Under the pieces are notes generated by a model that searched no databases, was not told the origin of the DNA, and worked only from the letters and a program-made list of their open reading frames with translations. A DNA stretch of 64,000 bases from Mitsuaria sp. PDC51 (GTDB lineage: Bacteria; Pseudomonadota; Gammaproteobacteria; Burkholderiales; Burkholderiaceae_C). How positions within the stretch are numbered: the stretch's first letter is position 1; every line of letters starts with the position of its first letter. Position numbers and translations under genes: made by a program. Where the stretch lies: the NCBI RefSeq assembly GCF_900113225.1, contig NZ_FOZE01000002.1:372001-436000 (forward strand), in the 5' to 3' direction. Positions 5,211 through 30,575 of this stretch are shown one piece after another.

Positions 5211-5334
5211 CGGCACGGCGGCCGGGGTCGCGACCGGTCCTTGAGCACCGCGCGTCCTCCCCTCGCCCAGCCGTTATGACTCCCGCGGCCGCATTGACGA
5301 CAATGCGGGACCCCGCACGCCCGCCGTCACGACC

Positions 5335-6453: not shown

Positions 6454-6655
6454 GCACCGCGGAGCTCGCGCCACGCCGTGGGCCTTCGCGGCGAGCGGCG
6501 GCGCCGCCGGATCTAGGTCCGGCTTCCGAACAGTGCAACCGTCCCCGCCGTTCGTGTCGCTTCCGTGAAGTCTGACAGCGCGCTTTCCGGCCTCCGTCGC
6601 TAAGCTTCGCGACCTCCCCACCACCACCGCCGTTGCCGCCGCACGGCGTTGCCTC

Positions 6656-8620: not shown

Positions 8621-8630
8621 GTCGCCGACG

Positions 8631-11053: not shown

Positions 11054-11178
11054 AACCGTCGTGAATTTGTCCACGGTCAATCTGGAAAATCCGGAGTTGT
11101 GACAAGTACGCACATCTTCTGTCGGCGGCATCACGGAAGATCCTGCCCTTTTCAGAAGTGCCAGGAAGTGCCACGCCC

Positions 11179-12297: not shown

Positions 12298-12381
12298 TCG
12301 TCCAGGCAGCGGGCGGCCGCGCTTGCCCCTGAAGATCACGACATCGTGATCGCTGAAGTCGCGAGGTGAAGTCGTGATGGA

Positions 12382-12936: not shown

Positions 12937-13038
12937 GGCCCACCCGGCCCTGGGGTCTCTCCCCGTCAAGCGCGCGGGCGGACGGGCCAGAATCCGCCTC
13001 CATCGGCGCAACCGGCGCAACCGGCACAGGGGCAGCAG

Positions 13039-13890: not shown

Positions 13891-13959
13891 TCAGCGCCGG
13901 CGCTCGTCGGCTCGTCGGCTCCACGGACCGCGACGGCGCTCCACGCGGCTCGCGCCGGC

Positions 13960-15222
13960 TCACCCGGCCGGCGCCACCCGTTCCTGCGAGCGACGGCCGG
14001 CGGTGAGCCACAGGACCAGCGCGAAGACCGCGCCGCCGACGCTGGCCAGGCCGAAGAACAGCATCATCGATTCATAACCGGCGGGGTTCTGCGCGCTGGC
14101 GCCGGCGCGGTCGTTGAGCCAGCCGGCCACCAGGTTGGCCCCGGCGATGCCGGCGTTCTGCGCCACCCACATCAACCCGATCGCCGTGCCGAAGCGCGAC
14201 GGCGACACCAGCCGGCTGGCCAGCGGCCACATCACCGCCGGCACCAGCGAGAAGCTGACGCCGATCAGCGCGGTCGAGACCCACAGGCTGGCGGTGGTCA
14301 GCGCCATCAGCGCCATCGCGACCGGCAGCAGCGCCGCGCCGAAGGCCAGGAAAGGCGCGTAGCGGCCGACCCGGTCGCACAGCCAGCCGAAGGCCGGCGT
14401 CGCGAAGACGGCGGCGAGGAACACGTAGCTGTTCATCGCGCCGGCGGCCGCGAGATCCAGGCCATGCGCGTGCTGGAAGTACTTGATCGCGAAGGTGCTG
14501 CGGAAGGCCAGGATCACCGAGTACCAGAGCACGCACAGCGCGAGCAGGAACCAGTAGGCCTTGCCGAAGTGCAGCAGGTCGCGCCAGGCGAAGGGTTGAG
14601 CCTGCTGCTGCGCGGCGCCCTTGTCGGCGGCGGCGACGCGCCGGTCGAGCCACCAGTACAGCAGCGCGCCGCCGAAGGAGGCGGCCGCCATCGCCGCCGC
14701 GATCAGCAGCGGCGGCTGCCAACCCTGGGCGTAGGCGTGGGGGAACCAGGTCGGCGACATGTCGGACGAGAAGGAGCCGAGCCGGCCGATGGACAGGGCC
14801 AGTCCCATCGAGAACGCCACCTTGCCGCCGACGAAGTACTGCGCGAGCGCCGCCAGCGTGGCGATGCCGAAGGTCTCGGCGCCGATGCCGAACAGCAGCC
14901 GGCCGGCGGCCATGCCGACGAAGCCGGGGCTCAGCGCGGTGAGCAGCGCGCCGAGCAGGCAGACGGCGGCGGTCCACAGCGTCATGCGCGCGGCGCCGAA
15001 GCGGTCCACCAGCACGCCGCCGACGAGGATCAGCACGACGTTGGGCAGGCTGTAGATCGCGTTGAGCAGGCCGATCTGCTGGTCGCTGAAGCCGCGCTGG
15101 CTTTGCAGCGCGTCGGCGACGGGGCCGATCGAGTCGTAGACGTAGTAGTTGCCGTACAGCGACGCGGCCACCAGGGCGCACACCAGCCACGCGATGGCGC
15201 GGCTCGGGGACTTGTCGTTCAT
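13960..15222 (-). CDS. MFS transporter
   Basis: 420 aa with about 12 hydrophobic segments and the MFS loop 2-3 motif (GGVLVDRFGAARM) plus its second-half copy (GWLCDRVGRYAPF). It begins MNDKSPSRAIAWLVC with an ATG at 15222. The overall pattern, including SLYGNYYVYDSIGPVAD and FSSDMSPTWF, resembles the MFSD1-like/nitrate-sulfonate-like clade that exports or imports small organic acids or dipeptides, but the substrate cannot be assigned. It is the only leftward gene in this stretch and is convergent with the methyltransferase. A 195-bp gap separates its start from the next rightward gene. Confidence 0.85.
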   Translation of the reverse strand: MNDKSPSRAIAWLVCALVAASLYGNYYVYDSIGPVADALQSQRGFSDQQIGLLNAIYSLPNVVLILVGGVLVDRFGAARMTLWTAAVCLLGALLTALSPGFVGMAAGRLLFGIGAETFGIATLAALAQYFVGGKVAFSMGLALSIGRLGSFSSDMSPTWFPHAYAQGWQPPLLIAAAMAAASFGGALLYWWLDRRVAAADKGAAQQQAQPFAWRDLLHFGKAYWFLLALCVLWYSVILAFRSTFAIKYFQHAHGLDLAAAGAMNSYVFLAAVFATPAFGWLCDRVGRYAPFLAFGAALLPVAMALMALTTASLWVSTALIGVSFSLVPAVMWPLASRLVSPSRFGTAIGLMWVAQNAGIAGANLVAGWLNDRAGASAQNPAGYESMMLFFGLASVGGAVFALVLWLTAGRRSQERVAPAG

Positions 15223-17080: not shown

Positions 17081-19915
17081 CTATGCCTCGAGCCGCAGCT
17101 GACCAAACGCCGCCGGCACGTGGAAGTTGGGCTTTTCGCTGCCCGTCGGATTCCACGCGCTGAACTGCCGCGTCTCCTTGTTCCCCTCGATGCGGAACAG
17201 GTTGATGCGCCACCCGTCGAGCGGCTGGGGACCGCGCGGCATCGGCACCACCAGTTCCGCCGTCCACAGGCGATGGCCGGTATCGACCGCCGTGCGCGCC
17301 CGGCTTTCGCCGACGAAGCGCCGACGCCCGGCGCCGCGCACCTCCAGGTCCATCACCAAGCCGTTGGGTGACACCTCCACCTCGCGGTAGCGGTCCGACC
17401 CGGCGTCCTGCGGCGCCTGCAGGAAGACCTCCACCACGTCGCGCTGCCACAGCGGCCAGATCTCCGTCGAGGACTGCTCGCGATCGAAGGTGCTGAGCGC
17501 GTTGTAGCGACTGCTGAAGCGCAGGTGCAGCGCGCCGTCCGCATGCAGCAGCTGCACCCGCGTCGACTGCGTCCCGGTCAGCGGCCGGCCGCGCCAGTCG
17601 TGGGCGAAGAACATCGCCGGCGCGTCCTCCCAGGCCGAGGCCAGCGCGAAGCCGTCCCGCCCGATCAGCCGCGACGGCAGGCGCGCCGCGCGCGCCAGCG
17701 GGCGCTCGACCGCCGCCTCCAGCACCGCCTCGATCAGCAGGTGCTCGCGAAACGCCGCCTTCAGCGTCGGCCTCGCGGCGTCGACGCGGCCGAGGTCCAC
17801 GCCATTCACGTAATCACGCACGCGCCACATGCCCGGGCCCAAGCCGCGCAGCGTCACCGTGCCGTCGAAGCGCGGCGCATAGAACGCGTAATGCATCACC
17901 CCGTTCTTCTCGACCACATGGGTCTCCGGCTTGTCGAAGGCGATGTCGTAGAGCTCGCCGCGATACACGCCATCCGACAGGCCCTTCGCGTTGTGCGCCG
18001 CGATCCACTTGCGCCAATGTGACTCGCGCTCCGGCGTCAGCAGGAAGGAGTCCTTGGGCTTGGGATCCTCCGGCCAGGTGAATTTGGTCGACACCACCGC
18101 GCCCACGCCGACGGCCGACGCGAAATCCATGCCGCCGGTCGACAGCTCGACGTGGTCGCCCGCGTAGGCCGACCAGCGTCCCATCTGCGCCTTCAGCGCC
18201 TTGCCCTTGTGCCGCACCTGCCAGCTCGACAGCGGGTCCGACGCCGGCGCCTGGTCGATCCACGGCATGTTGTGGAAGGCGTAGCTCGTGCCGCAGGGGC
18301 AGACCTCGACCACCGCTTCCGGATTCACCGCATGCGCGGCCTCGAACATCGCGCGGTAGAAATCGGCCATCTGCTCGACGGACTCCTCCGGCTTCGCATG
18401 CCGGTGCTTCGGGTTGAAGCACGGCGCCACGCCGTTGAGATGCTGGCCGTCGACCTTCACCCCGTCGAAGCCCCAGTCCTGGATGATCTTGCGGAACATC
18501 GCCGCCGTGCGCTCGCGTGTCTCCTTCGCGCCCGGGCACAGGTAGAGGCAGTTCCACCAGGTGATCATCTGCGGCGCGCCGTTCTGGTCGAGCAGCAGCA
18601 GGTCCGCGTGTTCGTGCAGCTCGTCGCTGCCCGGCGCCACCGCCAGAGGCGCGATCCACAGCCGCGCCTTCATGCCGCGCGCGTGGATGTCGGCCACCAG
18701 CGCCTTCATGTCCTCCTCGCCGCGCGGGAATTTCTTGAGGTCGATGTCGAACCAGTCGCCGGTCTGACGCTGCCAGCCGTCGTCCAGCACCGCCCACTTC
18801 AAACCGAGTTCCCGCGCCTTGGGCAACGTCGCGCGCACGCGGTCGAGCGAGAAGTCGCGCTCGTACCCCCACGCGCACCAGACCGACTCATGCGCGCTGC
18901 GCGGCGGCTCAGGCGCTGCCAGCCCCTGCGCGTTCATCAGACGCCGGTAGCGGTCCAGCGGGACGAAGCAGTCACCCTCATGCACGGCGATGAAGGCCAG
19001 CGGCAGCGCGAGCGTCTCGCCCGGTGCCAGCGTGCGCGGCTCATCGCCGCGCATCGCGATGTCCACCTGCTCACCCACCGCCTTCACCGGCAGCGAGACC
19101 AGGCGCGGCAGGGTATCCAGATGGCCGATCGCCACGCCCAGGTCGCGCCGCCACACGTCCACCAGCGGCGTGCCGCCGCCGTAGTCGGACGAATCCATGC
19201 CGAGGAAGTTGCGCTGCTGGAAGCCACGCTTGACCGGCTGCATCCAGTCGCGCCGGTCGGTGTGCGTCGCGCCCGAGTAGGTCCACCACCCGCCCGCATG
19301 CCGGGGCGCGGCCAGCAGCCGGTGCGCGGCCACCGTCCAGCCCTGCACCGTCAGCGGCCTGTCCGAGCGGTTGACGAAAGCGACCGCCATCAGCGCGACG
19401 CCGGGGTGCTCGTCCAGCAGCGTCACCGTGACTGTCTTCGCGACGGCCGCTCCCTCGGCACGGCCGGTCAGCACGAGTCGCTGGCCGGCGCCGAACGGCG
19501 TCGCACCGCTGCTCGGAACGGCGCTCGCGAGCGCGAAGCGGTCGAGCGTCCTCGTCTTCACAGCACCGGCGCTCGCACCGCCCGCCGGCGTGACACCAGC
19601 CACCGGCGCCGGTCCGCCCAGCGCAGCTGTATCTCCGGCCAGCCCCTGGCCATCGACGATCACGATCGACTCGCCCGCATCGAAGCCGGTGAGCGCCAGC
19701 GGCCGCGGGCCGCCCAGACGCACGAGACGGCTGCGCATCCGGTCATCGAAGTGCAGCGACAGCCGCTCATCCTGCAGACGCACGTGTCCGCGTCCGAGGT
19801 CCGCGGCGCGGGCCGACGCGGCGGCGCCCGCGCTCGCGGCGAACGCCACACGCGGCGCGACGGTGGCCACGGGCGCGGCGCCCAGCCACTGGAGGAAGGC
19901 GCGGCGGCCGGTCAT
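17081..19915 (-). CDS. Exported GH36-like alpha-galactosidase with C-terminal CBM9-like domain
   Basis: 944 aa from ATG 19915; the frame stays open further upstream but runs through the amidohydrolase gene. The N-terminus MTGRRAFLQWLG with a following Ala-rich stretch suggests a Tat or Sec signal. A beta-rich N-domain precedes a clan GH-D barrel: KWAVLDDGWQ (about 373-382) and GFDGVKVDGQ (about 482-491), where the Asp of KVDG is the expected nucleophile. Clan members act on alpha-galactosides and alpha-GalNAc. The last 200 residues resemble a CBM9/DOMON-type sandwich (EIWPLWQRDVVEVFLQAP). The start overlaps the amidohydrolase stop by 4 bp. In context it should trim galactose or GalN/GalNAc ends from a galactosamine polymer in the periplasm. 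Confidence 0.8.
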   Translation of the reverse strand: MTGRRAFLQWLGAAPVATVAPRVAFAASAGAAASARAADLGRGHVRLQDERLSLHFDDRMRSRLVRLGGPRPLALTGFDAGESIVIVDGQGLAGDTAALGGPAPVAGVTPAGGASAGAVKTRTLDRFALASAVPSSGATPFGAGQRLVLTGRAEGAAVAKTVTVTLLDEHPGVALMAVAFVNRSDRPLTVQGWTVAAHRLLAAPRHAGGWWTYSGATHTDRRDWMQPVKRGFQQRNFLGMDSSDYGGGTPLVDVWRRDLGVAIGHLDTLPRLVSLPVKAVGEQVDIAMRGDEPRTLAPGETLALPLAFIAVHEGDCFVPLDRYRRLMNAQGLAAPEPPRSAHESVWCAWGYERDFSLDRVRATLPKARELGLKWAVLDDGWQRQTGDWFDIDLKKFPRGEEDMKALVADIHARGMKARLWIAPLAVAPGSDELHEHADLLLLDQNGAPQMITWWNCLYLCPGAKETRERTAAMFRKIIQDWGFDGVKVDGQHLNGVAPCFNPKHRHAKPEESVEQMADFYRAMFEAAHAVNPEAVVEVCPCGTSYAFHNMPWIDQAPASDPLSSWQVRHKGKALKAQMGRWSAYAGDHVELSTGGMDFASAVGVGAVVSTKFTWPEDPKPKDSFLLTPERESHWRKWIAAHNAKGLSDGVYRGELYDIAFDKPETHVVEKNGVMHYAFYAPRFDGTVTLRGLGPGMWRVRDYVNGVDLGRVDAARPTLKAAFREHLLIEAVLEAAVERPLARAARLPSRLIGRDGFALASAWEDAPAMFFAHDWRGRPLTGTQSTRVQLLHADGALHLRFSSRYNALSTFDREQSSTEIWPLWQRDVVEVFLQAPQDAGSDRYREVEVSPNGLVMDLEVRGAGRRRFVGESRARTAVDTGHRLWTAELVVPMPRGPQPLDGWRINLFRIEGNKETRQFSAWNPTGSEKPNFHVPAAFGQLRLEA

Positions 19916-21066
19916 CGGGCGGCCTTCCACGCGGTCGGGAAGCTGCGCGCCGCATTGAGGTGGTACAGCTTGTCCACGACGGCCTTGGGCAGGCCCAGGC
20001 CCTGCACCGGTTGCTCGAGATCCGACACCTTGAACGTCTCCTCCGTGTTGAAGTAGCGCCAGTGCATGCGCCACACCGGCTCGACTTCCTTCAGCAGCTC
20101 GGCGCCCGATTGTTGCGGCGGCTGTGAGACGTCGGTGCCGTACATCAGGCGGTCCTGGTACTGGATCATGAAGCGGCGCACCTTCTCCCGGTCGCGCTGG
20201 CTCTGGTACTGCAGCTGGCCGATGCGCGCGGCCAGGTCCACCTTGGCCAGCGGGAAGCGGTCCAGGAAGGCCGCCAGCTCGTCGACGTTGCGCTCCAGCG
20301 AGGCCATGTGCATGCCGATGAACTTCAGCTTCGGATGCGCCGCCACCATGCGGTCGCGCGCGGCCATCTGGTCCTCCCAGCTGGGCATCTCCGGGTGCAA
20401 CGCCATGTGGTACTGCGGGTGATGCGCGAAGTAGTCGCGGTCGTTGAGGACCGTCATCTGGTCCAGCGGCAACCAGCAGTTGTGGGGCTCGCCCTGATGG
20501 CCGAGCATCGGGATGCCGCGTTCCTCGAACCAGCTGAACAGCGGCTGGAAGCGGGCGTCGTCGATCATCACCAGCTGGCCCTGCGGGTCGCGCAGGCTCA
20601 TGCCGATGTTCTTCCACACCTTCACCCCGACCGCGCCGGCGCGCAGGCCGGCATAGATGCGCTGCTTCGTCGCATCGAGCCAGCCCGGCCAGTCGGACGT
20701 GTCCGACGAGAAGCTCACCGCCCAGGCCACCGCCGCCGGCCGCGCCTGGCGCAGCGCGACCGCCACCCGCTGCTGCTCGTCCAGCGGCGGGAAGTCGGGG
20801 TAGTCGACGTTGATCGTCAGCACCTGGAAGCCGAGCCGCCGCGCGGCATCGACGAACGCCGGATCGGCGTTGTGCAGGTGGACGTGCGCGTCGATCTTGG
20901 GCACCTTGGCGAAGTCCGCCATCGTGTAGCGGTCCTCGCCCGCAGCGGTCGCCGCCAGGGCACCAGGGACGGCGCCCATCGAAGCGACCATCGCCGTCGC
21001 CATCAGGCTGGCGGCCAGCCAGGCCGGCAACGCGGCGCGGGAGGGAGTTCTCGTCGTGTCGGTCAT
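19912..21066 (-). CDS. Exported amidohydrolase-2 family metal-dependent hydrolase
   Basis: 384 aa with a long signal region (residues about 12-40, ending GALAAT). TIM-barrel amidohydrolase markers: IDAHVHLHN (H61, H63), GVKVWKNIG, GHQGEPHN, FIGMHMAS and YGTDVSQP (metal-site Asp). This matches the amidohydrolase_2 group, whose members cleave or decarboxylate cyclic substrates or act as sugar lactonases. It lies between the GH114 and GH36 genes in the same transcript (24 bp after GH114, 4-bp overlap with GH36), so it probably acts on the same carbohydrate. Whether it removes an acyl group or opens a lactone cannot be read from the sequence. Confidence 0.8.
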   Translation of the reverse strand: MTDTTRTPSRAALPAWLAASLMATAMVASMGAVPGALAATAAGEDRYTMADFAKVPKIDAHVHLHNADPAFVDAARRLGFQVLTINVDYPDFPPLDEQQRVAVALRQARPAAVAWAVSFSSDTSDWPGWLDATKQRIYAGLRAGAVGVKVWKNIGMSLRDPQGQLVMIDDARFQPLFSWFEERGIPMLGHQGEPHNCWLPLDQMTVLNDRDYFAHHPQYHMALHPEMPSWEDQMAARDRMVAAHPKLKFIGMHMASLERNVDELAAFLDRFPLAKVDLAARIGQLQYQSQRDREKVRRFMIQYQDRLMYGTDVSQPPQQSGAELLKEVEPVWRMHWRYFNTEETFKVSDLEQPVQGLGLPKAVVDKLYHLNAARSFPTAWKAAR

Positions 21067-21090
21067 CGTGGGAAATGCAGGTTCAGGCGA

Positions 21091-21906
21091 TCAATCGCAG
21101 CTGTAGCGATAGGCGTCGTTGAGGTCCAGCGGCAGCACCAGCGTGCGGATCTTCGCGGCCCGCATCTTGGTGCAGAGCTTGTCGCGCGCGCCGTTCGTGT
21201 TCTTGCGGTACTTGGACGCGTACTCGGCGTTGAACACGGGCTTGTTCTTGCTGGTGAAGACCGTGTAGCCGCCGCACTCGTCGTACTGGTTGCACTGCTC
21301 GTTGACCGCCATGTCGAAGTAGGGCTCGAGCTGCGCCAGCTGGTCGACGTCGTTCTTCAGCGCGATCGCCAGGCCGCGGCCGTGCGCCGCGTTGGCGAGG
21401 TACTTGTTGTAGTCGAGCTGCGTGGCCGCCGTCAGCGGGAAGCCGGTGCCGTTGGTGTAGCCGTCCACGTTGTCCGGCTCGACGCCGTCGCAGCCCTTGG
21501 ACACGGCCAGGTCCAGCCGGCTCAGCATCACCGCGCGCACGGTGGCCGAGCGCGTGTCCAGCCACTTCTCGCCTTCCCAGCCGTCCAGCGCGTTGCCCAT
21601 GTCGGCGGCGTTGAAGCGGTTGAAGTCGGAGCGCCAGTTCTCCGAGCTGCCGGCCGAGAAGTAGCACAACACCTTGCGGCCCTGCGCCTTCAACTGCGCG
21701 ATCGTCTGCGCGGAGGTGTCGAACAGGTCGATGTCGTAGACGGCCACGTTGTAGCCGGTGTTGAGCGTGCCGCTCAGCTGCCACTGCCAGGTCGTCGCGA
21801 CGCCGGGCTTCCACCACGACTGCGCCTGGGCACCAGTGGTGGCGGCGAGCGCGGCGGCGGCGGCGACGAGGCCGGTGGCCATCGAACGGATCAGCGATCG
21901 TTTCAT
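21091..21906 (-). CDS. GH114 endo-alpha-1,4-polygalactosaminidase
   Basis: 271 aa. ATG 21906 is preceded by ACAGGAGAA. The signal peptide ends GAQAQ (about residue 29). The mature protein shows WQWQLSGTLN, VAVYDIDLFDT, KVLCYFSAGS, the acidic active-site strand CDGVEPDNVDGY (residues 139-150), AIALKND and KPVFNAEY, all characteristic of GH114. Known members hydrolyse alpha-1,4-linked galactosamine in fungal galactosaminogalactan and the bacterial polysaccharide Pel. It should act outside the cell or in the periplasm, producing galactosamine oligomers for the adjacent TonB receptor. Length matches the family's catalytic domain with no extra module. Confidence 0.88.
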   Translation of the reverse strand: MKRSLIRSMATGLVAAAAALAATTGAQAQSWWKPGVATTWQWQLSGTLNTGYNVAVYDIDLFDTSAQTIAQLKAQGRKVLCYFSAGSSENWRSDFNRFNAADMGNALDGWEGEKWLDTRSATVRAVMLSRLDLAVSKGCDGVEPDNVDGYTNGTGFPLTAATQLDYNKYLANAAHGRGLAIALKNDVDQLAQLEPYFDMAVNEQCNQYDECGGYTVFTSKNKPVFNAEYASKYRKNTNGARDKLCTKMRAAKIRTLVLPLDLNDAYRYSCD

Positions 21907-21982
21907 GAGTTCTCCTGTGGGTCGGGCCGTGTGCCGGCCCGGGTGTTGTGGAACCCCCAACGTCCTCTCCGGGAAGCCGGCG

Positions 21983-24847
21983 TCAGAACTTGATGCTCGC
22001 GCCGATCGTGAACGCCCGGCCCCAGCGGTTGTAGCCCTGAGGCAGCGTGATGGAGCCGTTGCCCAGCGTGTACTCCTGCTTGGCGTCGGTCAGGTTGCGG
22101 CCCTCGATCGAGAGCTTCAGCCACTTGTTGAACTCGTAGGACGCCTGCGCGGTCACCCAGGTGATCGCCTTGGCGCGCTCGTTGAAGCCGGGGCCGATCA
22201 CGTTGATCGCCGAGACGAAGTCGTCGGTGTGGTCGGCCGTCGCGCTCAGGCTCCACGGGCCCTTCTCGTACAGCAGGCTCAGCGAGGAGGTCGCCGGCGC
22301 GATGCCTTCGAGCGGCCGCTTCTCGCCGCCGACCCAGCTGTCCGAGCGGTTGCGCGTGTACTGCGCCCGCACGCCCAGGCCGTTGTCCCACAGGTGCTGG
22401 AAGCCGATCTCCATGCCGCGCACCTTGGCCTTGTCGCCGTTGATCGGCTTCATCACATTGAAGAGATGGCCCGGCACGCCGATGTCCACGCCGGTCTGCC
22501 AGCTGGTGGTGATCTGGTTCTTGATGTCCTTCTGGAACACCGCGAAGGTCAGCGCCGAGTTGCGGGCGTAGTACCACTCCAGCGAGGCGTCGTACTGCTT
22601 GGCGCTGTAGGGCTTGAGGTCGGCGTTGCCGCCGAAGACCTGGGTGAAGTCGCCCCAGGCCACGCTGGCCGTGGTGCTGGTGGGTGCGAGCTGCTCGACC
22701 GAGGGCCGCGCCATCGTCTTGGCCGCGCCCAGGCGCAGCTGCAGCTGGTCGGTGAAGTGCCAGACGAAGTTGGCCGACGGCAGGCCGAAGGTGTACGAGG
22801 CGTCCTGCCCGATCTGTGTCGGCGCGGCATAGACCGCGGTGTAGTTGAAGGGGCCGTTCTCGGTCAGGCTCTCGATCTTGGCGTCCCAGGCCCTGGCCGA
22901 GGTCTTGGTCTTGACCAGGCGCACGCCGATGTCCGCGTTCCAGCGCTCGCCGGAGAGGTCGGCCTCGATGAAGAAGGAAGTGGTCTTCTCGCGCACGCGG
23001 TAGCTCTGCAGCGGGTTCCACACCGGCGCGGCCAGGCTGAAGTCGTAGCTGCCGCCGTCGGGGCGCGGCTTGCCGTTGTAGGCCTGCAGCGCCGCGAGGT
23101 AGTTGGGCACGTCGAAGCCCAGGAAGCTGCGCGGGAAGCTGCCGCTGACGCCGTTCATGAAGTTTGGCGGGCTCAGGTGCTGGTCCAGCACGTTGCCGCC
23201 GAGCTGGCCGACGTTGATCGCGTTGGCGCCGGAGTAGTAGTTCTCGCCGCCGTTGATCGCGTTGTCGACCAGGTCGCGGTGCTTGTCGCGCCGGGTGCTC
23301 TGCACGCCGAACTGGATCTGGTCGACGTTGAAGCGGTCCACCGACCACGCGCCGTTCAGCGTCAGGCCGCGGATCTTGTCGTCGATGTTGTCGCCGCTCA
23401 GGCCCAGGTAGTGGGTGTTGAAGTCGCTGGCGCCGAACTGGCCGCCGGCCAGGCCGTTGATCAGGTCGCGGCCGTCGGCGAAGGTCGTGCTGATGCTGGG
23501 CACCTGCGAGCCGGTCAACTGCACCGTCGTCACATTGGGCTGGTTCATGCGCAGCACCGTGTAGGTGTCCTGCCCGCCCGAATGGCGCTTGGAGGTCGAC
23601 TGGTACAGATCGCCGCTGAACTTCAGCGTCTCGGTCGCCTTCCACTCGGCGTTGACGCCGTACAGGGCGCTGTCGACGACGCGATGGGTGGTCAGGTTCA
23701 GCAGCTCCGGATTGAGCCGCTGCTCCGGGTCCGGGTTGTCCATCGTGAAGCCGGTGACAACCCCGTTGCGGATCTGCATGTTGGACCAGCGACCCGGCGC
23801 GAACAGCGTGTAGAAGGACTGCTGGTAGCCGACCTGCGGCGAGTCCAGCCGCGTCCTGATGCCGTCGATGGTGACCTTCAACTGCTCGCTGGGCCGCCAC
23901 TCGACCTTGCCCGACAGCGCGGTGCGCTTCTTCTGCTCCTGGATGGTGCCGACGCGGAACTGGCCGGGGCCGATCAGGCCTTCCTCGTCGGGGTCGAGCA
24001 CGCCGTTGCCGTTCGGGTCGATGTTGCCGCCCCAGGCATTGCCGGTCCAGTTGGCGGCCGGGTCGGCGATCGGGTTGCGGGTCCAGCCGCCGTCGTTGCC
24101 GGCGGTGTCGGTGCGGACCTTGCGGTCGGCGTAGACCAGACCGACCAGCACGCCCAGTTCCTTGCCGAAGGTGTTGCTGTAGGTGGCCGAGAGCTTGCCG
24201 CCGTTGAGCCTGGACATCAGGTTGCGGTCGCCCTCCACGCGCAGCAGGCCGTGCTGGCCGGGCTGGTCGAAGGGACTGGCGGAGCGCAGGTTGACCAGGC
24301 CGCCGATCGCGCCTTCCATCACCGAGGCCTGCGCCGACTTCACCACGTCGGCGCCGCTGATGATGTCCGACGGCAGCACGTCGAAGGCGAAATCGCGGCC
24401 CTCGCCATCGGTGGCCAGGATGCGGTTGTTGAAGGTCGTCAGCGTGTATTCCGGCCCCAGGCCGCGCACGCTGACCTTCTGGCCCTCGCCGCCGGCGGTC
24501 CGCGAGATCGACACGCCGGTGATGTGGCTCAGCGAGTCGGCCACGTTGTCGTCCGGGAAGCGGCCCAGCTCGGTCGCGCTGATGCTGTCCTGCACGCCCG
24601 AGGCACTGCGCTTGAGGTTGAGCGAGCGCTGCAGGCTGGCGCGGGTGCCGGTGACCTCGACGCGCTCGAGCGTCTGGTCGGCGTCCCTGGCCTTGGCGTC
24701 GGCCTTGGCTTCCGACGCCGCCGGCGCCGGTGGCTGCACCTGCGCCTGGGCCGCGCCCATGGCGGCCAGCGCGGCGATCGCCGCGGCGGCGGCGACGGGC
24801 CGCGGCGCGAATCGGGCGGTCAGGAGGGAGGACTGGGGAGCTCGCAT
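21983..24847 (-). CDS. TonB-dependent receptor, Xanthomonas/Caulobacter carbohydrate type
   Basis: 954 aa, ATG 24847. After a signal peptide there is a Pro/Ala/Lys spacer, then VEVTGTRASLQRSLNLKR, the hallmark start of the large receptor subfamily used for oligosaccharides. The plug follows (FPDDNVADSLSHITGVSI, VSVRGLGPEY), then a long barrel ending FTIGASIKF. An internal DPNGNGVLDPDEEG loop may bind calcium. It is first in the leftward operon, 76 bp before GH114, and would import galactosamine oligosaccharides. Its promoter lies in the divergent region, where CTTTCG-type boxes occur. Confidence 0.9.
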   Translation of the reverse strand: MRAPQSSLLTARFAPRPVAAAAAIAALAAMGAAQAQVQPPAPAASEAKADAKARDADQTLERVEVTGTRASLQRSLNLKRSASGVQDSISATELGRFPDDNVADSLSHITGVSISRTAGGEGQKVSVRGLGPEYTLTTFNNRILATDGEGRDFAFDVLPSDIISGADVVKSAQASVMEGAIGGLVNLRSASPFDQPGQHGLLRVEGDRNLMSRLNGGKLSATYSNTFGKELGVLVGLVYADRKVRTDTAGNDGGWTRNPIADPAANWTGNAWGGNIDPNGNGVLDPDEEGLIGPGQFRVGTIQEQKKRTALSGKVEWRPSEQLKVTIDGIRTRLDSPQVGYQQSFYTLFAPGRWSNMQIRNGVVTGFTMDNPDPEQRLNPELLNLTTHRVVDSALYGVNAEWKATETLKFSGDLYQSTSKRHSGGQDTYTVLRMNQPNVTTVQLTGSQVPSISTTFADGRDLINGLAGGQFGASDFNTHYLGLSGDNIDDKIRGLTLNGAWSVDRFNVDQIQFGVQSTRRDKHRDLVDNAINGGENYYSGANAINVGQLGGNVLDQHLSPPNFMNGVSGSFPRSFLGFDVPNYLAALQAYNGKPRPDGGSYDFSLAAPVWNPLQSYRVREKTTSFFIEADLSGERWNADIGVRLVKTKTSARAWDAKIESLTENGPFNYTAVYAAPTQIGQDASYTFGLPSANFVWHFTDQLQLRLGAAKTMARPSVEQLAPTSTTASVAWGDFTQVFGGNADLKPYSAKQYDASLEWYYARNSALTFAVFQKDIKNQITTSWQTGVDIGVPGHLFNVMKPINGDKAKVRGMEIGFQHLWDNGLGVRAQYTRNRSDSWVGGEKRPLEGIAPATSSLSLLYEKGPWSLSATADHTDDFVSAINVIGPGFNERAKAITWVTAQASYEFNKWLKLSIEGRNLTDAKQEYTLGNGSITLPQGYNRWGRAFTIGASIKF

Positions 24848-24936
24848 CTCAGGGTTCCTTGTGTTGGCTGGCGGCTTGCGGCAAGTCTACGCAGTCTTTC
24901 GAATGATTTCGCATATCGTTTTTACCGACGTTTTGT

Positions 24937-24961
24937 CTTTCGCTTATCACTTTGACGAAAG
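24937..24961. promoter_or_regulatory. Putative AgaR box: CTTTCG-N13-CGAAAG
   Basis: An inverted repeat with 6-bp arms separated by 13 bp lies about 90 bp upstream of the receptor start (24847) and 176 bp upstream of the permease start (25137). DeoR-family repressors such as AgaR bind arrays of TTTCGTT-like repeats in divergent promoters. Assigned by position and by recurrence at the agaR promoter. Confidence 0.45.
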
Positions 24962-25091
24962 AATTAGGACGGTCGAATCACCTTCAATCGTGCCACCACA
25001 CCCCTCGCATCCACGGGTTTTCCCTCGAAATCAAGCCTTTCAGGCCTTGCTGACGCTTCTTCCGTTGTGTTTTCAATTTCGCTGCACTATT

Positions 25092-25105
25092 CTTTCGTTC
25101 GAAAG
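25092..25105. promoter_or_regulatory. Putative AgaR box: CTTTCG-TT-CGAAAG palindrome
   Basis: CTTTCGTTCGAAAG consists of perfect 6-bp arms around TT, 31 bp upstream of the permease ATG. The right half, TTCGAAAG, recurs exactly at 29729-29736 upstream of agaR, and its complement CTTTCGAA lies at 24896-24903 on the receptor side. Confidence 0.5.
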
Positions 25106-25136
25106 CTCAATCCTTCGAACGAGACGAAAGCGATTC

Positions 25137-26018
25137 ATGCAACGACCCTGGCTGACCTACGCGCTGATCACCACCCTGTTCTGGGGCGCCTGGGGCGCGC
25201 TGACCGGCCTGTCCTCGGCGCGCGGCTTTCCGGACACGCTGGTCTACGTCGTGTGGGCGCTGACCATGGTCCCGCCGGCGCTGATCGTGCTGGCGCGCGC
25301 CGGCTGGCGGCTGCAGCGCGACCGGCGCGCGGTGGTGCAGGGTCTCACGGTGGGCTTGCTCGGCGCTGGCGGGCAGATGCTGCTGTTCCGCGCGGTGGAA
25401 AGCGGCCCGGCCTACCTGATCTTCCCGATCGTGTCGCTGTCGCCGGCGGTGACGATCGCGCTGTCCTTCGGGCTGCTGCGCGAGCGCACCGGCAAGCTCG
25501 GCGTGGCCGGCATCGTGCTGGCGCTGTGCGCGCTGCCGCTGTTCGACTTCCAGCCCGGCCAGCAAGGCCAGCCGCTGGGCGCCTGGTTCGCGCTGGCGCT
25601 GGTGGTGATGGCGGCCTGGGGCCTGCAGGCCTATTTCCTGAAGACCGCCAACAACGCCGCCAGCGCCGAGAGCGTCTTCTTCTACATGACCGTCAGCGCG
25701 CTGCTGTGCATCCCTGCCGCGCTGTGGATGACCGACTTCTCGCGTCCCATCCCCTGGGGCTGGGACGGCCCCGGCCTGGCGGCCGCCATCCAGGTGCTGA
25801 ACGCGATCGGCGCGCTGACGCTGGTCTACGCCTTTCGCCACGGTCAGGCGCTGGTGGTCTCGCCGCTGGTCAACGCCGGCGCGCCGCTGCTGACGGCGCT
25901 GGCCTCGATGGCGATGAGCGGCAGCGCGCCCGGCGGCACCAAGCTCGCCGGCGTGGCGCTGGCGCTGCTCGCCGCGCTGCTGCTGGCGCTCCAACCCGAA
26001 GGCGAGGCCAAGGCCTGA
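25137..26018 (+). CDS. DMT-superfamily (EamA-like) permease, candidate galactosamine importer
   Basis: 293 aa from ATG 25137, with ten hydrophobic segments in two five-helix repeats (first begins WLTYALITTLFWGAWGALTG; second begins LGAWFALALVVMAAWGLQAYFL). This is the EamA/sugar-transporter-like architecture of the DMT superfamily. It is the first gene of the rightward operon, before kbaZ-agaS-kinase. The classical Aga pathway imports its sugar by PTS; here no PTS genes are present and a dedicated kinase is, so the permease should move the unphosphorylated amino sugar across the inner membrane. Substrate and direction are inferred from context only; many DMT proteins are exporters. Confidence 0.75.
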   Translation: MQRPWLTYALITTLFWGAWGALTGLSSARGFPDTLVYVVWALTMVPPALIVLARAGWRLQRDRRAVVQGLTVGLLGAGGQMLLFRAVESGPAYLIFPIVSLSPAVTIALSFGLLRERTGKLGVAGIVLALCALPLFDFQPGQQGQPLGAWFALALVVMAAWGLQAYFLKTANNAASAESVFFYMTVSALLCIPAALWMTDFSRPIPWGWDGPGLAAAIQVLNAIGALTLVYAFRHGQALVVSPLVNAGAPLLTALASMAMSGSAPGGTKLAGVALALLAALLLALQPEGEAKA

Positions 26019-26094
26019 CCGCCGGGTCCCGGCCCCGCCACGCCCCAGCCACACCGCGTCCACACGCATTGCCCCCGGACAGGAAGGACCTCCC

Positions 26095-27432
26095 TTGAAG
26101 CTCATGCTCGATCTCGTGCGGCGCCACCGGCAGTCGGCGTCCGCCAGCGCGATCTCCGCCACGATCTCCACCTCGGCCGACGGCCCGGCCGTCGGCATCC
26201 CGTCGATGTGCTCGGCGCATCCGGTCGTGCTGGCGGCGACGCTGCGCGAGTGCGCCGCGCTCGGCCGGCCGGCGCTGATCGAGGCGACATCCAACCAGGT
26301 CAACCAGGACGGCGGCTACACCGGCATGACGCCGATCGACTTCCGCCGCTTCGTCGAATCGCTGGCCCGCATCGAGGGCCTGGCGCCGGAGCTGCTCGTG
26401 CTGGGCGGCGACCACCTCGGGCCCAACGCCTGGCGCCGATTGCCCGCGGCGCAGGCGATGGCCAAGGCCGAGGTGATGGTGGCGCAGTACGTCGCGGCGG
26501 GCTTCCGCAAGATCCACCTGGACTGCTCGATGTCCTGCGCCGACGACCCGGTGCCGCTGCCCGAGCCCGAGATCGCGGCCCGCGCGGTGCGGCTGTGCCT
26601 GGCGGCCGAGCAGGCCTGGCGCGAGGCGCCCGACCGCGGCGAGCCGCCGGTCTACGTCATCGGCACCGAGGTGCCGGTGCCGGGCGGCGCGCACGAGGAC
26701 CTGGACGAACTGGCGGTGACCTCGCCCGAGGCGGCCGGCGCGACGCTGGCGCTGCACCGCGAGGCCTTCGCCGCGGCCGGCCTGGACGCGGCCTGGGCGC
26801 GGGTGATCGCGATGGTGGTGCAGCCGGGGGTCGAGTTCGACCACCACAAGGTCATCGACTACCGGCCGGAGAAGGCCCGCGCGCTGAGCGCCTTCATCGA
26901 ATCGCAGCCGGGCCTGGTTTTCGAGGCGCACTCGACCGACTACCAGACGCCGCAGCGGCTGGCGCAACTGGCGCGCGACCACTTCGCGATCCTCAAGGTC
27001 GGGCCCGGCGCCACCTTCGCGCTGCGCGAGACGCTGTGGGCGCTGGCCGCCGTGGAGCACGAGTGGCTGGGCCGCGGCGGTCGCGACGCCAAAGAGGACG
27101 GCCTCATCGGCACGGTGCTCGGCGTGATGCGCGCCGAGCCCGAGCACTGGCGCCCCTACTACCAGGACCCCGCGCGCCTGCAGGTGGACCTGGCCTACAG
27201 CCTGAGCGACCGCATCCGCTACTACTGGGCGCATCCCAAGGTCCAGGCCGCCTGCGCGGCGCTGCTGGACCGGTTGGAGCACTCCCCGCCGCCGCTGACG
27301 CTGCTGAGCCAGTTCCTGCCACGCCAGTACGACGCGATCCGCGACGGCCGCCTGCGCAACCGTCCGGCGGAGCTGCTGCGCGATGGCGCGGCGCAGTCGC
27401 TGCGTCCCTACCTCGCCGCCTGCGCCGCCTGA
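26095..27432 (+). CDS. kbaZ: GatZ/KbaZ-family protein, probable tagatose-6-phosphate 4-epimerase or aldolase subunit
   Basis: 445 aa. The chosen start is TTG 26095, 7 bp after AGGAAGG; ATG 26104 is the alternative. TIM-barrel family signatures: VGIPSMCSAHPVVL, LIEATSNQVNQDGGYTGM, LVLGGDHLGPN, IHLDCSMSC, YVIGTEVPVPGG, FEAHSTDYQT and LKVGPGATFALRE. In enterobacteria this family is the non-catalytic partner of the class II aldolase GatY/KbaY. Members from organisms lacking that partner are reported as D-tagatose-6-phosphate 4-epimerases giving fructose-6-P. No gatY or tagatose-6-P kinase is in this locus, so the epimerase role fits better. It is 77 bp after the permease and 37 bp before agaS. 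Confidence 0.85.
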   Translation: MKLMLDLVRRHRQSASASAISATISTSADGPAVGIPSMCSAHPVVLAATLRECAALGRPALIEATSNQVNQDGGYTGMTPIDFRRFVESLARIEGLAPELLVLGGDHLGPNAWRRLPAAQAMAKAEVMVAQYVAAGFRKIHLDCSMSCADDPVPLPEPEIAARAVRLCLAAEQAWREAPDRGEPPVYVIGTEVPVPGGAHEDLDELAVTSPEAAGATLALHREAFAAAGLDAAWARVIAMVVQPGVEFDHHKVIDYRPEKARALSAFIESQPGLVFEAHSTDYQTPQRLAQLARDHFAILKVGPGATFALRETLWALAAVEHEWLGRGGRDAKEDGLIGTVLGVMRAEPEHWRPYYQDPARLQVDLAYSLSDRIRYYWAHPKVQAACAALLDRLEHSPPPLTLLSQFLPRQYDAIRDGRLRNRPAELLRDGAAQSLRPYLAACAA

Positions 27433-27469
27433 GCGACGGGCGCCCTCCTCCAGAACCCGACCTGCCACG

Positions 27470-28639
27470 ATGAGCCTGCTCCACTTCGCCCCCGCCGACC
27501 TCGATCGCCGCGGCGCGGCCCACACCGCCCGAGAGATCGCCCAGCAACCCGAGGTGTGGCGCGCCGTGCATGCGCTGGTGGCGTCCCGGCGCGAGGCGCT
27601 CGACGCCTTCCTGCAGCCGCTGCTGGCGCGGCCCGACCTGCGCATCGTGCTCACCGGCGCCGGCAGCTCGGCCTTCATCGGGCAATGCCTGGCCCCGGCG
27701 CTGCTGCAGCAGCTGGGCGCGCGGCCCGGCATCCGCGTCGAGGCGATCGCCACCACCGACATCGTCTCGAGCCCCGCCCAATGCCTGCAGCCCGGCGTGC
27801 CGACGCTGCTGGTGTCGTTCGCGCGCTCGGGCAACAGCCCCGAGAGCCTGGCCGCGGTCGACCTGACCGATGCCACGGTCGATGAATGCCACCACCTGGC
27901 CGTCACCTGCGCGGCCGAGGGCACGCTGGCGCGGCGGCTCGGCGCGCACCCGCGCGCCCAGGTGCTGCTGCTGCCGGACGAGACCCACGACCGCGCCTTC
28001 GCGATGACGTCCAGCTTCACCGGCATGCTGCTCGCCGCCGCCTGGGCCTTCGGGCTGCCGCTGCCCACGCCGCAGGCGCTGGGCGACGCGGCCACGCGGC
28101 TGCTGGCCAGCGAGGCGGATCGCCTGGTGGCGCTCAGCGAGCAGCCCTTCGAGCGCGTCGTCGTGCTGGGCAGCAACGGCCTCAAGGGCCTGGCCCACGA
28201 GGCGGCGCTGAAGATCCTGGAGCTGACCGACGGCCGGCTGGTGGCGCTGGCGGATTCGCCGCTGGGCTTCCGGCATGGGCCCAAGACGGTGCTGAACGAG
28301 CGCACGCTGGTGCTGATCCTGATGTCCAACGACAGCTACACCTGCCGCTACGACCAGGACCTGCTGCGCGAGCTGCGCCGCCAGGGCCGCGGCCGCGTCG
28401 TCGCGCTGAGCACGGCGGCGCTCAACGGCACCGACGCGCTGTCCGAGGACGACGTGCTGCTGGACCTGCCGGCCAACGTGCCCGACCTGGCGCTGGCGCC
28501 GGTGGCGCTGGTCTTCGGGCAGTGCCTGGCGCTGCTGGCCTCGCTCAAGCTGGGCATCACGCCGGACAATCCGAGCGCATCCGGCACCGTGACCCGCGTG
28601 GTCAGCGGCGTCACCATCCACCCGCATCCGCAGGGCTGA
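27470..28639 (+). CDS. agaS: AgaS, galactosamine-6-phosphate deaminase/isomerase (SIS domains)
   Basis: 389 aa from ATG 27470, close to the 384 aa of E. coli AgaS. Two SIS domains: the first has VLTGAGSSAFIG and VSFARSGNSPES (sugar-phosphate loop), the second has VLGSNGLKGLAHEAALKILELTDG and DSPLGFRHGPKT. AgaS converts GalN-6-P to tagatose-6-P with release of ammonia. It is cytoplasmic and placed directly between the GatZ/KbaZ protein and the kinase, six bases before the latter. Together with agaR it is the strongest indicator that the pathway handles galactosamine rather than glucosamine. Confidence 0.9.
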   Translation: MSLLHFAPADLDRRGAAHTAREIAQQPEVWRAVHALVASRREALDAFLQPLLARPDLRIVLTGAGSSAFIGQCLAPALLQQLGARPGIRVEAIATTDIVSSPAQCLQPGVPTLLVSFARSGNSPESLAAVDLTDATVDECHHLAVTCAAEGTLARRLGAHPRAQVLLLPDETHDRAFAMTSSFTGMLLAAAWAFGLPLPTPQALGDAATRLLASEADRLVALSEQPFERVVVLGSNGLKGLAHEAALKILELTDGRLVALADSPLGFRHGPKTVLNERTLVLILMSNDSYTCRYDQDLLRELRRQGRGRVVALSTAALNGTDALSEDDVLLDLPANVPDLALAPVALVFGQCLALLASLKLGITPDNPSASGTVTRVVSGVTIHPHPQG

Positions 28640-28645
28640 CTCCCG

Positions 28646-29656
28646 ATGAGCGCGATGACATCGACGATCGCCGACGACCACCAGCGCGCGGCTGACCGCG
28701 ACGCGGTCTACCTCGGCATCGACGGCGGCGGCACGAAGACCAGCTTCCTGCTGCTGGCCGGCGACGGCCGTCTGCTGGCGCGGCATGTGTCGACGACCAG
28801 CTACTACCTGGAGATCGGTTTCGACGCGCTGCGCGCGCTGCTGCACGAGGGCATCGCCCAGACGCTGCGGCAGGCGGGACTGAGCCACGCATCGGTGCGC
28901 TCGGCCTTCGCCGGGCTGCCGGCGCATGGCGAGGACAGCGCGCTGCTGCCGGCCTTCGACGCGCTGCTCGCGGACCTGCCGCTCGCGCGGGTCGGCAACG
29001 ACATGGTGTGCAGCTGGGCGGGCTCGCTCGGCGGACGCGACGGCATCAGCCTGGTCGCGGGCACCGGCTCCATTGCCTATGGCGAGTGGCGGGGCCGGGG
29101 CGCACGCAGCGGCGGCTGGGGCGAGGTCTTCGGCGACGAGGGCTCGGCCTACTGGCTGGCGCGCGAGGGCCTGGCGCTGTTCTCGCGCATGGCCGATGGG
29201 CGCGCGGCGCCCGGGCCCTTGCTCGCGCTGGTGCGACGGCATTTCGGACTGGCGCACGACCTCGATGTCTGCGCGGCGGTCAACGGCGCCGCGGCGCGCA
29301 GCCGTCTCGCACAGCTGGCGCGGCTGGTCTCGGCCGCGGCGGCCGAGGGCGATGCGCAGGCCGCGGCCCTGCTGGCACGCGCCGGGGAGGAACTGGCGCT
29401 GCTCGCGGCCGGCGTGGCGCGGCAGCTGGATCTCCCGGCTGATGCAGCGGTCGAGGTGTCGTACACCGGCGGCGTCTTCGAGGCCGGCGATGCGGTCACC
29501 GGCGCGCTGCGGGCGGCGATGGCGAAGTCGCTGCCGAATGCGGTGCTCGTGGCACCGAGGTTCGGGCCGGAGCTGGGCGCGGCGATGTATGCGGCGCGGT
29601 TGGCCGGGGCGCGGCTGGAGCCGGACACGCACGCCGTTGCCGCGCTGGCGCGCTGA
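28646..29656 (+). CDS. BadF/NAGK-type amino-sugar kinase (probable galactosamine kinase)
   Basis: 336 aa. Actin-like ATPase fold: phosphate-1 loop YLGIDGGGTKTSFLL, phosphate-2 VAGTGSIAYGEW, GWGEVFGDEGSAYWLAREGL, and the adenosine-loop-like VEVSYTGGVFEAGD. The family includes N-acetylglucosamine kinases and glucosamine kinases. In this operon it should phosphorylate galactosamine at O6 to feed AgaS, replacing the phosphorylation done by PTS in other Aga systems. Start ATG 28646, only 6 bp after the agaS stop. Specificity for GalN versus GalNAc cannot be told from sequence. Confidence 0.85.
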   Translation: MSAMTSTIADDHQRAADRDAVYLGIDGGGTKTSFLLLAGDGRLLARHVSTTSYYLEIGFDALRALLHEGIAQTLRQAGLSHASVRSAFAGLPAHGEDSALLPAFDALLADLPLARVGNDMVCSWAGSLGGRDGISLVAGTGSIAYGEWRGRGARSGGWGEVFGDEGSAYWLAREGLALFSRMADGRAAPGPLLALVRRHFGLAHDLDVCAAVNGAAARSRLAQLARLVSAAAAEGDAQAAALLARAGEELALLAAGVARQLDLPADAAVEVSYTGGVFEAGDAVTGALRAAMAKSLPNAVLVAPRFGPELGAAMYAARLAGARLEPDTHAVAALAR

Positions 29657-29728
29657 GCGAGCGCCATCCGGCCGCCGCTTCGGCGCCCTCTCACTCACTG
29701 GCTTCCGAACGCAGCGACCTCGATATCA

Positions 29729-29736
29729 TTCGAAAG
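29729..29736. promoter_or_regulatory. Putative AgaR box upstream of agaR
   Basis: TTCGAAAG lies 20 bp before the agaR ATG (29757) and is identical to the half-site in the permease promoter at 25098-25105. The surrounding gap (29657-29756) is AT-richer than its flanks, so agaR may have its own autoregulated promoter. Confidence 0.45.
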
Positions 29737-29756
29737 TTCACGTCTTCCGGATCCTC

Positions 29757-30575
29757 ATGTCCACCACCCGCGCCCCGAGTCCCACGTCCGCCGACAAGCG
29801 TGACGCCTCGCTGCTGATCGACGAGCGGCGCCAGCTGATCCGCGACCAGGTGCAGGCGCAGGGGCGGGTCACGGTGGAGGAACTGGCCGAGCGTTTCGGC
29901 ATCTCGGTGGTCACCATCCGCAGCGACCTCAACGCGCTTGCCGCCGGCGGCGCGCTGCTGCGGACGCACGGCGGCGCGCTGGCGCATCGCGACACCGAGG
30001 AGGTGCCGATCAGCGTCAAGCAGAAGCTGCATCACGAGCAGAAGGTGCGCATCGCCATCGAGGCGGCGAAGCTGATCCGCGACGGCGAGACGGTGATGCT
30101 GGACTCGGGCTCGACCACCGAGGAGATCGCCAAGCAGATCCGCGGCCTGCGGCTGCAGTCGCTGAACGTGATCACGAATGCGCTGAACATCGCGATGCTG
30201 CTGGCGACGGTGCCTGGCGTGAACGTGATCATGCCGGGCGGGCTGCTGCGGCCGAACTCGTACTCGCTGTCGGGCCCGCAGGCGGTGACCGCGCTGCAGA
30301 GCCTGTACGCGGATCGCCTCTTCCTCGGCGTGGACAGCCTGGATCCGGAGATCGGCGTCATGACGCCGCACCTGCTGGAGGCGCAGCTGAACGCGCAGAT
30401 GATGAAGATCGCGCGCCAGGTGGTCGCGGTCGCGGATGCGTCCAAGCTGATGAAGCGCAACCTGTCGGTGATCGCGCCCGTCGAGCAGCTCGACCTGCTG
30501 ATCACCGACAAGGACGCCGACGAGGCCATCGTCAGCGAGCTGCGGCGCCGCGGCGTCGAGGTCGTGCTGGCCTGA
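29757..30575 (+). CDS. agaR: DeoR-family repressor, AgaR-like
   Basis: 272 aa from ATG 29757. The N-terminal DeoR helix-turn-helix spans ERRQLIRDQVQAQGRVTVEEL to FGISVVTIRSDLNAL. The C-terminal DeoR sugar-phosphate-sensing domain shows MLDSGSTTEEIA, NVITNALNIA, VIMPGGLLRPNSYSLSGPQA, FLGVDSLD and VAVADASK. The long inter-domain stretch and the PNSYSLSGP segment are typical of AgaR, which responds to amino-sugar phosphates. It is the last gene of the rightward block, 100 bp after the kinase, and is convergent with the ChaN-like gene. It should control both divergent operons through the CTTTCG/CGAAAG boxes. Confidence 0.88.
   Translation: MSTTRAPSPTSADKRDASLLIDERRQLIRDQVQAQGRVTVEELAERFGISVVTIRSDLNALAAGGALLRTHGGALAHRDTEEVPISVKQKLHHEQKVRIAIEAAKLIRDGETVMLDSGSTTEEIAKQIRGLRLQSLNVITNALNIAMLLATVPGVNVIMPGGLLRPNSYSLSGPQAVTALQSLYADRLFLGVDSLDPEIGVMTPHLLEAQLNAQMMKIARQVVAVADASKLMKRNLSVIAPVEQLDLLITDKDADEAIVSELRRRGVEVVLA

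Follow-up and report, generated by a model that had tools for sequence, protein, structure and literature searches.

We examined a 64,000-nucleotide stretch of the Mitsuaria sp. PDC51 genome (5.85 Mb, six contigs), positions 372001-436000 of contig C4 and hereafter the window, for a gene cluster that an initial annotation had read as a complete galactosamine-polysaccharide utilization system. The cluster comprises nine genes between positions 17081 and 30575, arranged as two divergent operons separated by a 289-bp gap (Table 1). The coordinates and the Pfam and NCBIfam assignments bear out both the inventory and the divergent arrangement proposed in that annotation. On the evidence presented below, the locus is probably a locally regulated utilization system for an alpha-linked galactosamine (GalN) polymer.

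Table 1 Features of the cluster in the window and of linked genes in related loci (functions as predicted).
Feature	Location	Strand	Basis
Exported GH36 (Melibiase), exo-alpha-galactosaminidase-like, 944 aa	17081..19915	-	Pfam and PDB match to FpGalNase
Exported Amidohydro_2 (PF04909), candidate periplasmic deacetylase	19912..21066	-	Pfam
GH114 endo-alpha-1,4-galactosaminidase (predicted), signal peptide-like start	21091..21906	-	PF03537, 300 bits (cut-off 27)
TonB-dependent receptor, TonB-Xanth-Caul type	21983..24847	-	TIGR01782, 579.7 bits (cut-off 310)
Divergent regulatory region, six CTTTCG/CGAAAG half-sites	24848..25136		Sequence reading
EamA (drug/metabolite transporter, DMT) permease, candidate inner-membrane galactosamine importer	25137..26018	+	PF00892, 80 bits
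GatZ/KbaZ/AgaZ, tagatose-bisphosphate aldolase non-catalytic subunit or proposed tagatose-6-phosphate kinase	about 26104..27432	+	TIGR02810
AgaS (SIS), probable galactosamine-6-phosphate deaminase/isomerase	27470..28639	+	Pfam, PDB, identity to E. coli AgaS
BadF-type amino-sugar kinase (BcrAD_BadFG)	28646..29656	+	Pfam
AgaR-type DeoR repressor	29757..30575	+	NF040755 best of its models
DUF4874-DUF4832 protein with ricin-type lectin domain	L052:14710-16641
DUF4874-DUF4832 protein	L053:12631-14112
GH27 with NPCBM domain	Loci L051-L060, L067-L069, L072, L074, L085, L091-L093, L095, L098, L107, L110, L112, L116, L118

The exported GH36 protein had been annotated as an alpha-galactosidase with a CBM9-like tail. 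In a PDB search its closest solved relative is instead the galactosaminidase FpGalNase, whose chains 8x1b, 9awt and 9ayu match residues 100-731 (632 residues) with 242-250 bits, whereas all other entries reach at most 46 bits over shorter stretches and the best other GH36 enzyme only 37 bits. Entry 8x1b carries the depositors' label 'Alpha-galactosidase', yet its sequence is almost the same as those of 9awt and 9ayu ('A type blood alpha-D-galactosamine galactosaminidase') and has all nine residues discussed in the FpGalNase paper at a constant offset of 43. According to that paper, alpha-galactosidase has W317, D346, D347, W387, K461 and D463 in common with FpGalNase, whereas Y464, C513 and D532 are not conserved between the two; the D463A, C513A and D532A mutants are nearly inactive and Y464A has reduced activity. 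The window protein and 81 relatives, 82 sequences in all, without exception retain W317, D346, D347, W387, K461, C513 and D532, with C541 and D560 of the window protein corresponding to C513 and D532. K487-x-D489 matches K461-x-D463 when read without gaps, and this K-x-D nucleophile motif is likewise present in all 82; MAFFT aligned D463 with Q491 owing to a two-residue insertion, so the assignment of D463 rests on the ungapped reading. On the PDB ranking and these residues, including C513 and D532, we reject an ordinary alpha-galactosidase, and by sequence the protein is exo-alpha-galactosaminidase-like, with a specificity that is predicted. The proposed CBM9-like tail is weak, its PF16011 match of 19.5 bits falling under the cut-off of 25. 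Two arginines near the N-terminus (R4 and R5) are invariant in 16 sequences, which makes a twin-arginine translocation (Tat)-type signal likely. The protein is 95% identical to its counterpart in Roseateles chitinivorans.

The second glycosidase finds its best PDB match in Ega3 (6oj1, 228 bits; next match 79 bits), and the Asp and Glu of the Ega3 chain that are separated by 58 residues, like D189 and E247, are identical in the window protein (PDN, NEQC). It belongs to GH114 rather than GH191, scoring 26 bits against a cut-off of 181 with the MJ1477/TM1410 model TIGR01370; TM1410 is, we assume, the GH191 enzyme of T. maritima. Its sequence is 90% identical to the GH114 of Roseateles sp. L2-2. 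A search of the whole source genome returned it as the only PF03537 match, with no PelA-like match of the kind seen in genomes of the same family, where PF03537 hits of 60-90 bits in frames of 900-1100 aa were taken for PelA. With GH114 as the sole match and no PelA-like protein, the target of the cluster is probably a polymer not produced by the cell. What GH114 enzymes do in bacteria is still little characterized: in one report, selected bacterial members gave no soluble, well-folded product and a Pseudomonas enzyme was only partly characterized (PMC12054363).

Related loci (L041-L120) were taken as the best 80 of 445 GH36 relatives from a contig scan with the GH36 alignment and two peptide patterns, and a gene was counted as present when tblastn gave a match above 80 bits (150 bits for the receptor and GH114) anywhere in the stretch. 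The shorter stretches lack genes that would lie past their ends, L057 and L069 come from different positions of one contig, the set shares genomes with a genus set of 16, and L121 comes from the same genome as L052; the counts therefore overlap and are not independent. The 80 loci span Burkholderiales, Xanthomonadales, Caulobacterales, Rhodospirillales and other Pseudomonadota; genomes that contain the block include those of R. chitinivorans, R. depolymerans and R. terrae (L041, L046 and L048). EamA is present in 75 of them, GatZ in 74, AgaS in 73 (within about 10 kb of GH36), AgaR-like proteins in 72, the amidohydrolase and the BadF kinase in 71 each, the TonB receptor in 68 and GH114 in 12. 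These eight genes other than GH114, counting GH36 itself, form a core that is complete in 59 loci, and where about 10 kb is available on both sides the core is complete in 51 of 62 and GH114 is present in 11. The 12 loci with GH114 belong to the Roseateles group and the Burkholderia cepacia complex, and in them GH114 is paired with AgaS as the initial annotation had envisaged.

Within the genus, GH36 and GH114 each occur in 13 of 16 genomes and share one block in 12, including the source; in three of these blocks GH114 is inverted behind GH36. R. aquatilis retains the block without GH114, another genome (G013) has a stand-alone GH114 only, and some genus stretches end before AgaR. Given these genus counts for GH36 and for its block with GH114, the cluster is a real, conserved block rather than a chance assembly. 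Among 150 genomes of the family, with at most five candidates scored per genome, GH36 matches were found in six (strong in two, weak over about 90-130 residues in four), and both genomes with a strong match have AgaS nearby; AgaS (E < 1e-100) was found in seven genomes among the matches listed, and canonical GH114 (E < 1e-80) in six. The family and 80-locus counts rule out GH114 as a constant marker of the system. Thus the annotated pairing of a galactosamine-directed catabolic system with GH114 and AgaS stands and the core recurs widely, but GH114 is a lineage-specific accessory and not a constant member.

Three Burkholderia loci (L061 lata, L062 cepacia and L063 cenocepacia; about 4400-14450) have neither receptor nor amidohydrolase; opposite EamA-GatZ-AgaS-BadF-AgaR they contain GH36, GH114 and a gene for a porin (Porin_4 in L061). 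These loci bear on a second interpretation, which we regard as unlikely: that the cluster serves alpha-N-acetylgalactosamine (GalNAc) or alpha-GalN glycoconjugates such as capsules, O-antigens and glycoproteins, with GH36 as the main enzyme and GH114 as a late, opportunistic neighbor. The core without GH114 is indeed far commoner, R. aquatilis keeps it, and 26 of the 80 loci, none of which has GH114, include a linked GH27 enzyme that bears an NPCBM domain. This GH27 enzyme might fit a galactose-containing galactosaminogalactan. Against the second interpretation, GH114 is present in the block of 12 of the 13 block-bearing genus genomes and in the three Burkholderia loci. In the GH114 tree, moreover, the Roseateles and Burkholderia cluster enzymes lie apart (support 97/92), as two recruitments would give, while a single origin is not rejected (approximately unbiased (AU) test, p 0.27; 0.086 with two more rows). 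An AU p of 1.5e-9, obtained with a grouping that left near-identical Roseateles rows outside, was not used. In the Roseateles group a polymer target is likely. Stand-alone GH114 genes (L036, L037 and L038 in the genus, L127-L129 in the family), some of them in long frames, fall on another side of the tree; the stretches examined around them contain no aga neighbors.

A DUF4874-DUF4832 protein is linked in eight of the 80 loci (L052-L058 and L060), none of which carries GH114. A TIM-barrel hydrolase with a DUF4832 domain, encoded in a pel operon of Streptococcus, is reported to disrupt Pel-dependent aggregates (PMC12345266), and in streptococci and clostridia genes for DUF4832 proteins are reported next to pel genes (PMC7112168). 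By analogy with the streptococcal hydrolase, DUF4874-DUF4832 may be a galactosaminidase family. A strict exchange of GH114 for DUF4832 is weakened by the genus genomes, 11 of 16 of which have DUF4832 elsewhere, nine of them alongside the GH36 block; no DUF4832 was found in R. aquatilis (G002). A dyad site of the type described below lies upstream of the DUF4832 gene in one of six such regions inspected (L140), and an open reading frame at L058:12664-14154 (minus strand) was discarded as antisense to the DUF4832 gene. In Duganella and Massilia (L064 and L070), the genes that follow GH36 matched no family above cut-off. Plasmids searched with a 43-base query gave no match.

The 289-bp gap between the operons holds six CTTTCG/CGAAAG half-sites (24896, 24937, 24956, 25092, 25100 and 25125), four of which make two dyads (24937-24961 and 25092-25105), compared with a density of 0.31 per kb in the window. 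Across the related loci, intergenic gaps within the core that measure 80-900 bases contain on average 4.8 half-sites per kb (188 in 39,018 bases) and core coding sequence 0.26 per kb (214 in 818,005 bases). The gap between EamA and the receptor has 5-7 half-sites in each of 15 Roseateles/Pelomonas-type loci, and the EamA/GH36 gap of the three Burkholderia loci has 7-8, though there GH36 rather than the receptor faces EamA. Where the operons are separated (L053, L054, L058 and L060), half-sites occur upstream of both; in L053, read by eye, four exact copies precede the receptor, and one copy plus near matches precede EamA. Scanning the gap for sigma-70 promoters gave no match. AgaR is the putative binder of the half-site, which resembles a TTTCG-rich AgaR consensus of E. 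coli. Because the half-sites recur in the gap and in its counterparts in relatives, the two operons look co-regulated, in line with the initial annotation.

The rightward operon combines genes of known aga type. GatZ exceeds its TIGR02810 cut-off (583.5 bits against 568.8), AgaS is 45% identical to E. coli AgaS and matches PDB entry 3c3j with 304 bits, AgaR is 40% identical to E. coli AgaR, and the BadF kinase matches the N-acetylglucosamine (GlcNAc)/N-acetylmuramic acid kinase 8zo3 with 86 bits. In E. coli knockouts, according to the portion of the report available, agaS is required for use of both GalNAc and galactosamine, and nagA is able to replace agaA (PMC3668189); AgaZ has been proposed as a tagatose-6-phosphate kinase in the accessible text of another study (PMC12118421). 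The likeness of AgaR, AgaS, GatZ and the kinase to known aga genes would also suit a conventional GalNAc pathway of the AgaK/AgaA/AgaS type that happens to stand beside an ordinary alpha-galactosidase, and the source genome does have a NagA elsewhere that could stand in for AgaA. We nonetheless consider this very improbable. The GH36 protein is far from the other solved alpha-galactosidases, and Pfam and NCBIfam identify no AgaA/NagA deacetylase among the window genes at 17081-30575. A NagA homologue, searched for with a piece of the source-genome NagA, is present in all five AgaS loci without GH36 (L122-L126), versus at least four of the 80 GH36 loci, all Duganella, leaving 76 without one, although some stretches end at the cluster edge. 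None was found in the genus stretches L024-L038, some of which also end at the cluster edge, or in L121, which reaches 4.7 kb past AgaR; about 15 Roseateles/Pelomonas-type stretches end less than about 500 bases past AgaR, so that a deacetylase farther out would escape detection. Given this contrast between loci with and without GH36, galactosamine rather than GalNAc probably enters the cytosol. Within the family, the five loci without GH36 thus form another type of AgaS cluster, with AgaS (about 45% identical), GatZ, AgaR and a NagA-type deacetylase and no match to the window GH36, amidohydrolase or EamA. At C4:1008430-1010152 of the source genome, a NagA match adjoins a weak SIS-domain match to the AgaS model, which is probably the GlcNAc pathway of this genome.

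The exported amidohydrolase, whose gene in the window shares four bases with the start of GH36, may act as a deacetylase in the periplasm. Six residues (H61, H63, K149, H190, H253 and D312) are invariant across an alignment of 53 of the 71 sequences at hand, and we take them to be a complete metal site by amidohydrolase rules. Its sequence has no match in the PDB at E 0.001. Its AlphaFold model (mean predicted local distance difference test, pLDDT, 88.4) resembles mostly uncharacterized amidohydrolases, ACMSD-type decarboxylases and COG3618/lactone or C-C hydrolases; the 50 matches listed include no deacetylase, which excludes nothing, and the modeled fold would fit deacetylase, lactonase and other roles alike. 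According to the part of the report available, Pel is mainly a GalN-GalNAc dimer repeat (PMC9135694), so a GalN-specific exo-enzyme would stall on it without a deacetylase. Because of this repeat, the enzyme pair of Flavonifractor plautii and the missing AgaA, we tentatively put forward, as possible though doubtful, a deacetylate-first route by which alternating GalN/GalNAc polymers, Pel among them, would be degraded. The amidohydrolase would be a new galactosaminoglycan deacetylase partnering GH36, only galactosamine would reach the cytosol, AgaA would be unneeded, and the endo step would be modular, carried out by GH114 in Roseateles and the Burkholderia cepacia complex or by the DUF4874-DUF4832 hydrolase in Pelomonas and Massilia relatives. 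If so, several hundred GH36 relatives would be specialized consumers of microbial galactosamine slimes.

For the window cluster as a utilization system for a galactosamine polymer, the predicted route would run as follows. Exported GH114 would cut deacetylated stretches of the polymer, and the TonB receptor would bring the oligomers into the periplasm. There the amidohydrolase would possibly strip N-acetyl groups, and GH36, probably Tat-exported and acting as an exo-alpha-galactosaminidase, would together with it reduce the oligomers to galactosamine. EamA, if it works in the inward direction, would move galactosamine over the inner membrane, the BadF kinase would convert it to galactosamine-6-phosphate (GalN-6-P), and AgaS would deaminate and isomerize GalN-6-P to tagatose-6-phosphate, which GatZ/AgaZ with a housekeeping class II aldolase would pass to glycolysis. 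AgaR would govern both operons via the shared gap. The polymer may be Pel-like, galactosaminogalactan or another; a fungal or Pel target, and with it the biofilm stripping or antifungal feeding suggested in the initial annotation, is possible.

Several observations weigh against parts of this interpretation: (i) FpGalNase Y464 is replaced in 82 of 82 sequences, by Gly in the ungapped reading or by His according to MAFFT, and the window GH36 is only 30% identical to FpGalNase (179/603), which together leave its specificity unproven. (ii) The three Burkholderia loci combine GH114 and GH36 without the amidohydrolase, contrary to a deacetylate-first route. (iii) GH114 is missing from 68 of the 80 loci, and thus the substrate of most relatives need not be a GalN polymer; of the six family genomes with canonical GH114, only the source has AgaS. 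(iv) The AgaR and TonB-receptor matches of distant loci are often 28-48% identical and may not be orthologues. (v) AgaS scores below the TIGR02815 cut-off (453.2 bits against 529.2), a strict threshold exceeded in none of 150 family genomes and one of 14 control genomes, AgaR falls below that of NF040755 (249.9 against 260) with this still its best model, and the kinase is far under that of NagK_SO3507 (84.9 against 370). (vi) The catalytic tagatose-bisphosphate aldolase subunit is missing from the cluster; no relatives of E. coli KbaY, AgaI or the source genome's aldolase were found in L024-L038 or L041-L129, and the sole class II aldolase of the source genome is encoded elsewhere on the contig, at a distance of about 0.52 Mb. 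(vii) The half-site motif is mostly absent in Xanthomonadaceae-type loci, and the dyad CTTTCG-N(2-14)-CGAAAG, with five places in the 5.85 Mb genome, two of them in this gap, is no commoner than a reversed-pattern control with four. (viii) The Poisson figure of about 7e-10 for the half-sites in the gap is an unfair test, the motif having been picked from the same gap; their conservation across gene rearrangement is better evidence.

Pel and fungal galactosaminogalactan are biofilm matrix polymers, and there is interest in using enzymes that cleave them as tools, whereas their natural consumers are little described within the literature searched. The locus offers a full candidate pathway and an environmental genus in which it can be tested, specific predicted roles for two families (exported Amidohydro_2 and DUF4874-DUF4832) and a proteobacterial galactosaminidase branch related to the blood-group-converting FpGalNase.

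The closest enzymatic parallel is the FpGalNAcDeAc/FpGalNase pair of F. plautii, with which the window shares a GH36 enzyme with the same catalytic residues and a possible deacetylase neighbor. The window GH36 differs in its modest identity and in the loss of Y464, and its neighbor is an Amidohydro_2 TIM barrel, a fold different from that of FpGalNAcDeAc. With the aga/gam clusters of E. coli and Shewanella the window cluster has AgaR, AgaS and KbaZ/AgaZ in common; it has no phosphotransferase system (PTS), AgaA or KbaY, and contains EamA, GH36, GH114 and the exported amidohydrolase instead. In Shewanella, as described in the accessible parts of two reports, a sugar kinase, a permease and an outer-membrane protein replace the PTS, as in the window (PMC2996990, PMC12118421). 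Ega3 and other GH114 enzymes share the family and catalytic pair of the window enzyme, but Ega3 remodels or modifies the fungus's own galactosaminogalactan, according to the portion available (PMC12054363), whereas the window GH114 lies in a catabolic operon. The BT4240-50 locus of B. thetaiotaomicron resembles the window cluster in being devoted to a glycan and in encoding an alpha-N-acetylgalactosaminidase together with a GalNAc kinase; unlike the window cluster, it bears SusD and addresses mucin glycans, and its abstract and outline do not name AgaS or GH114 (PMC11992087). No description of the window gene set was found among the open-licence titles and abstracts listed. As judged from its genes, the cluster appears to belong to the known aga/polysaccharide utilization locus (PUL) kind, in a combination that appears to be new.

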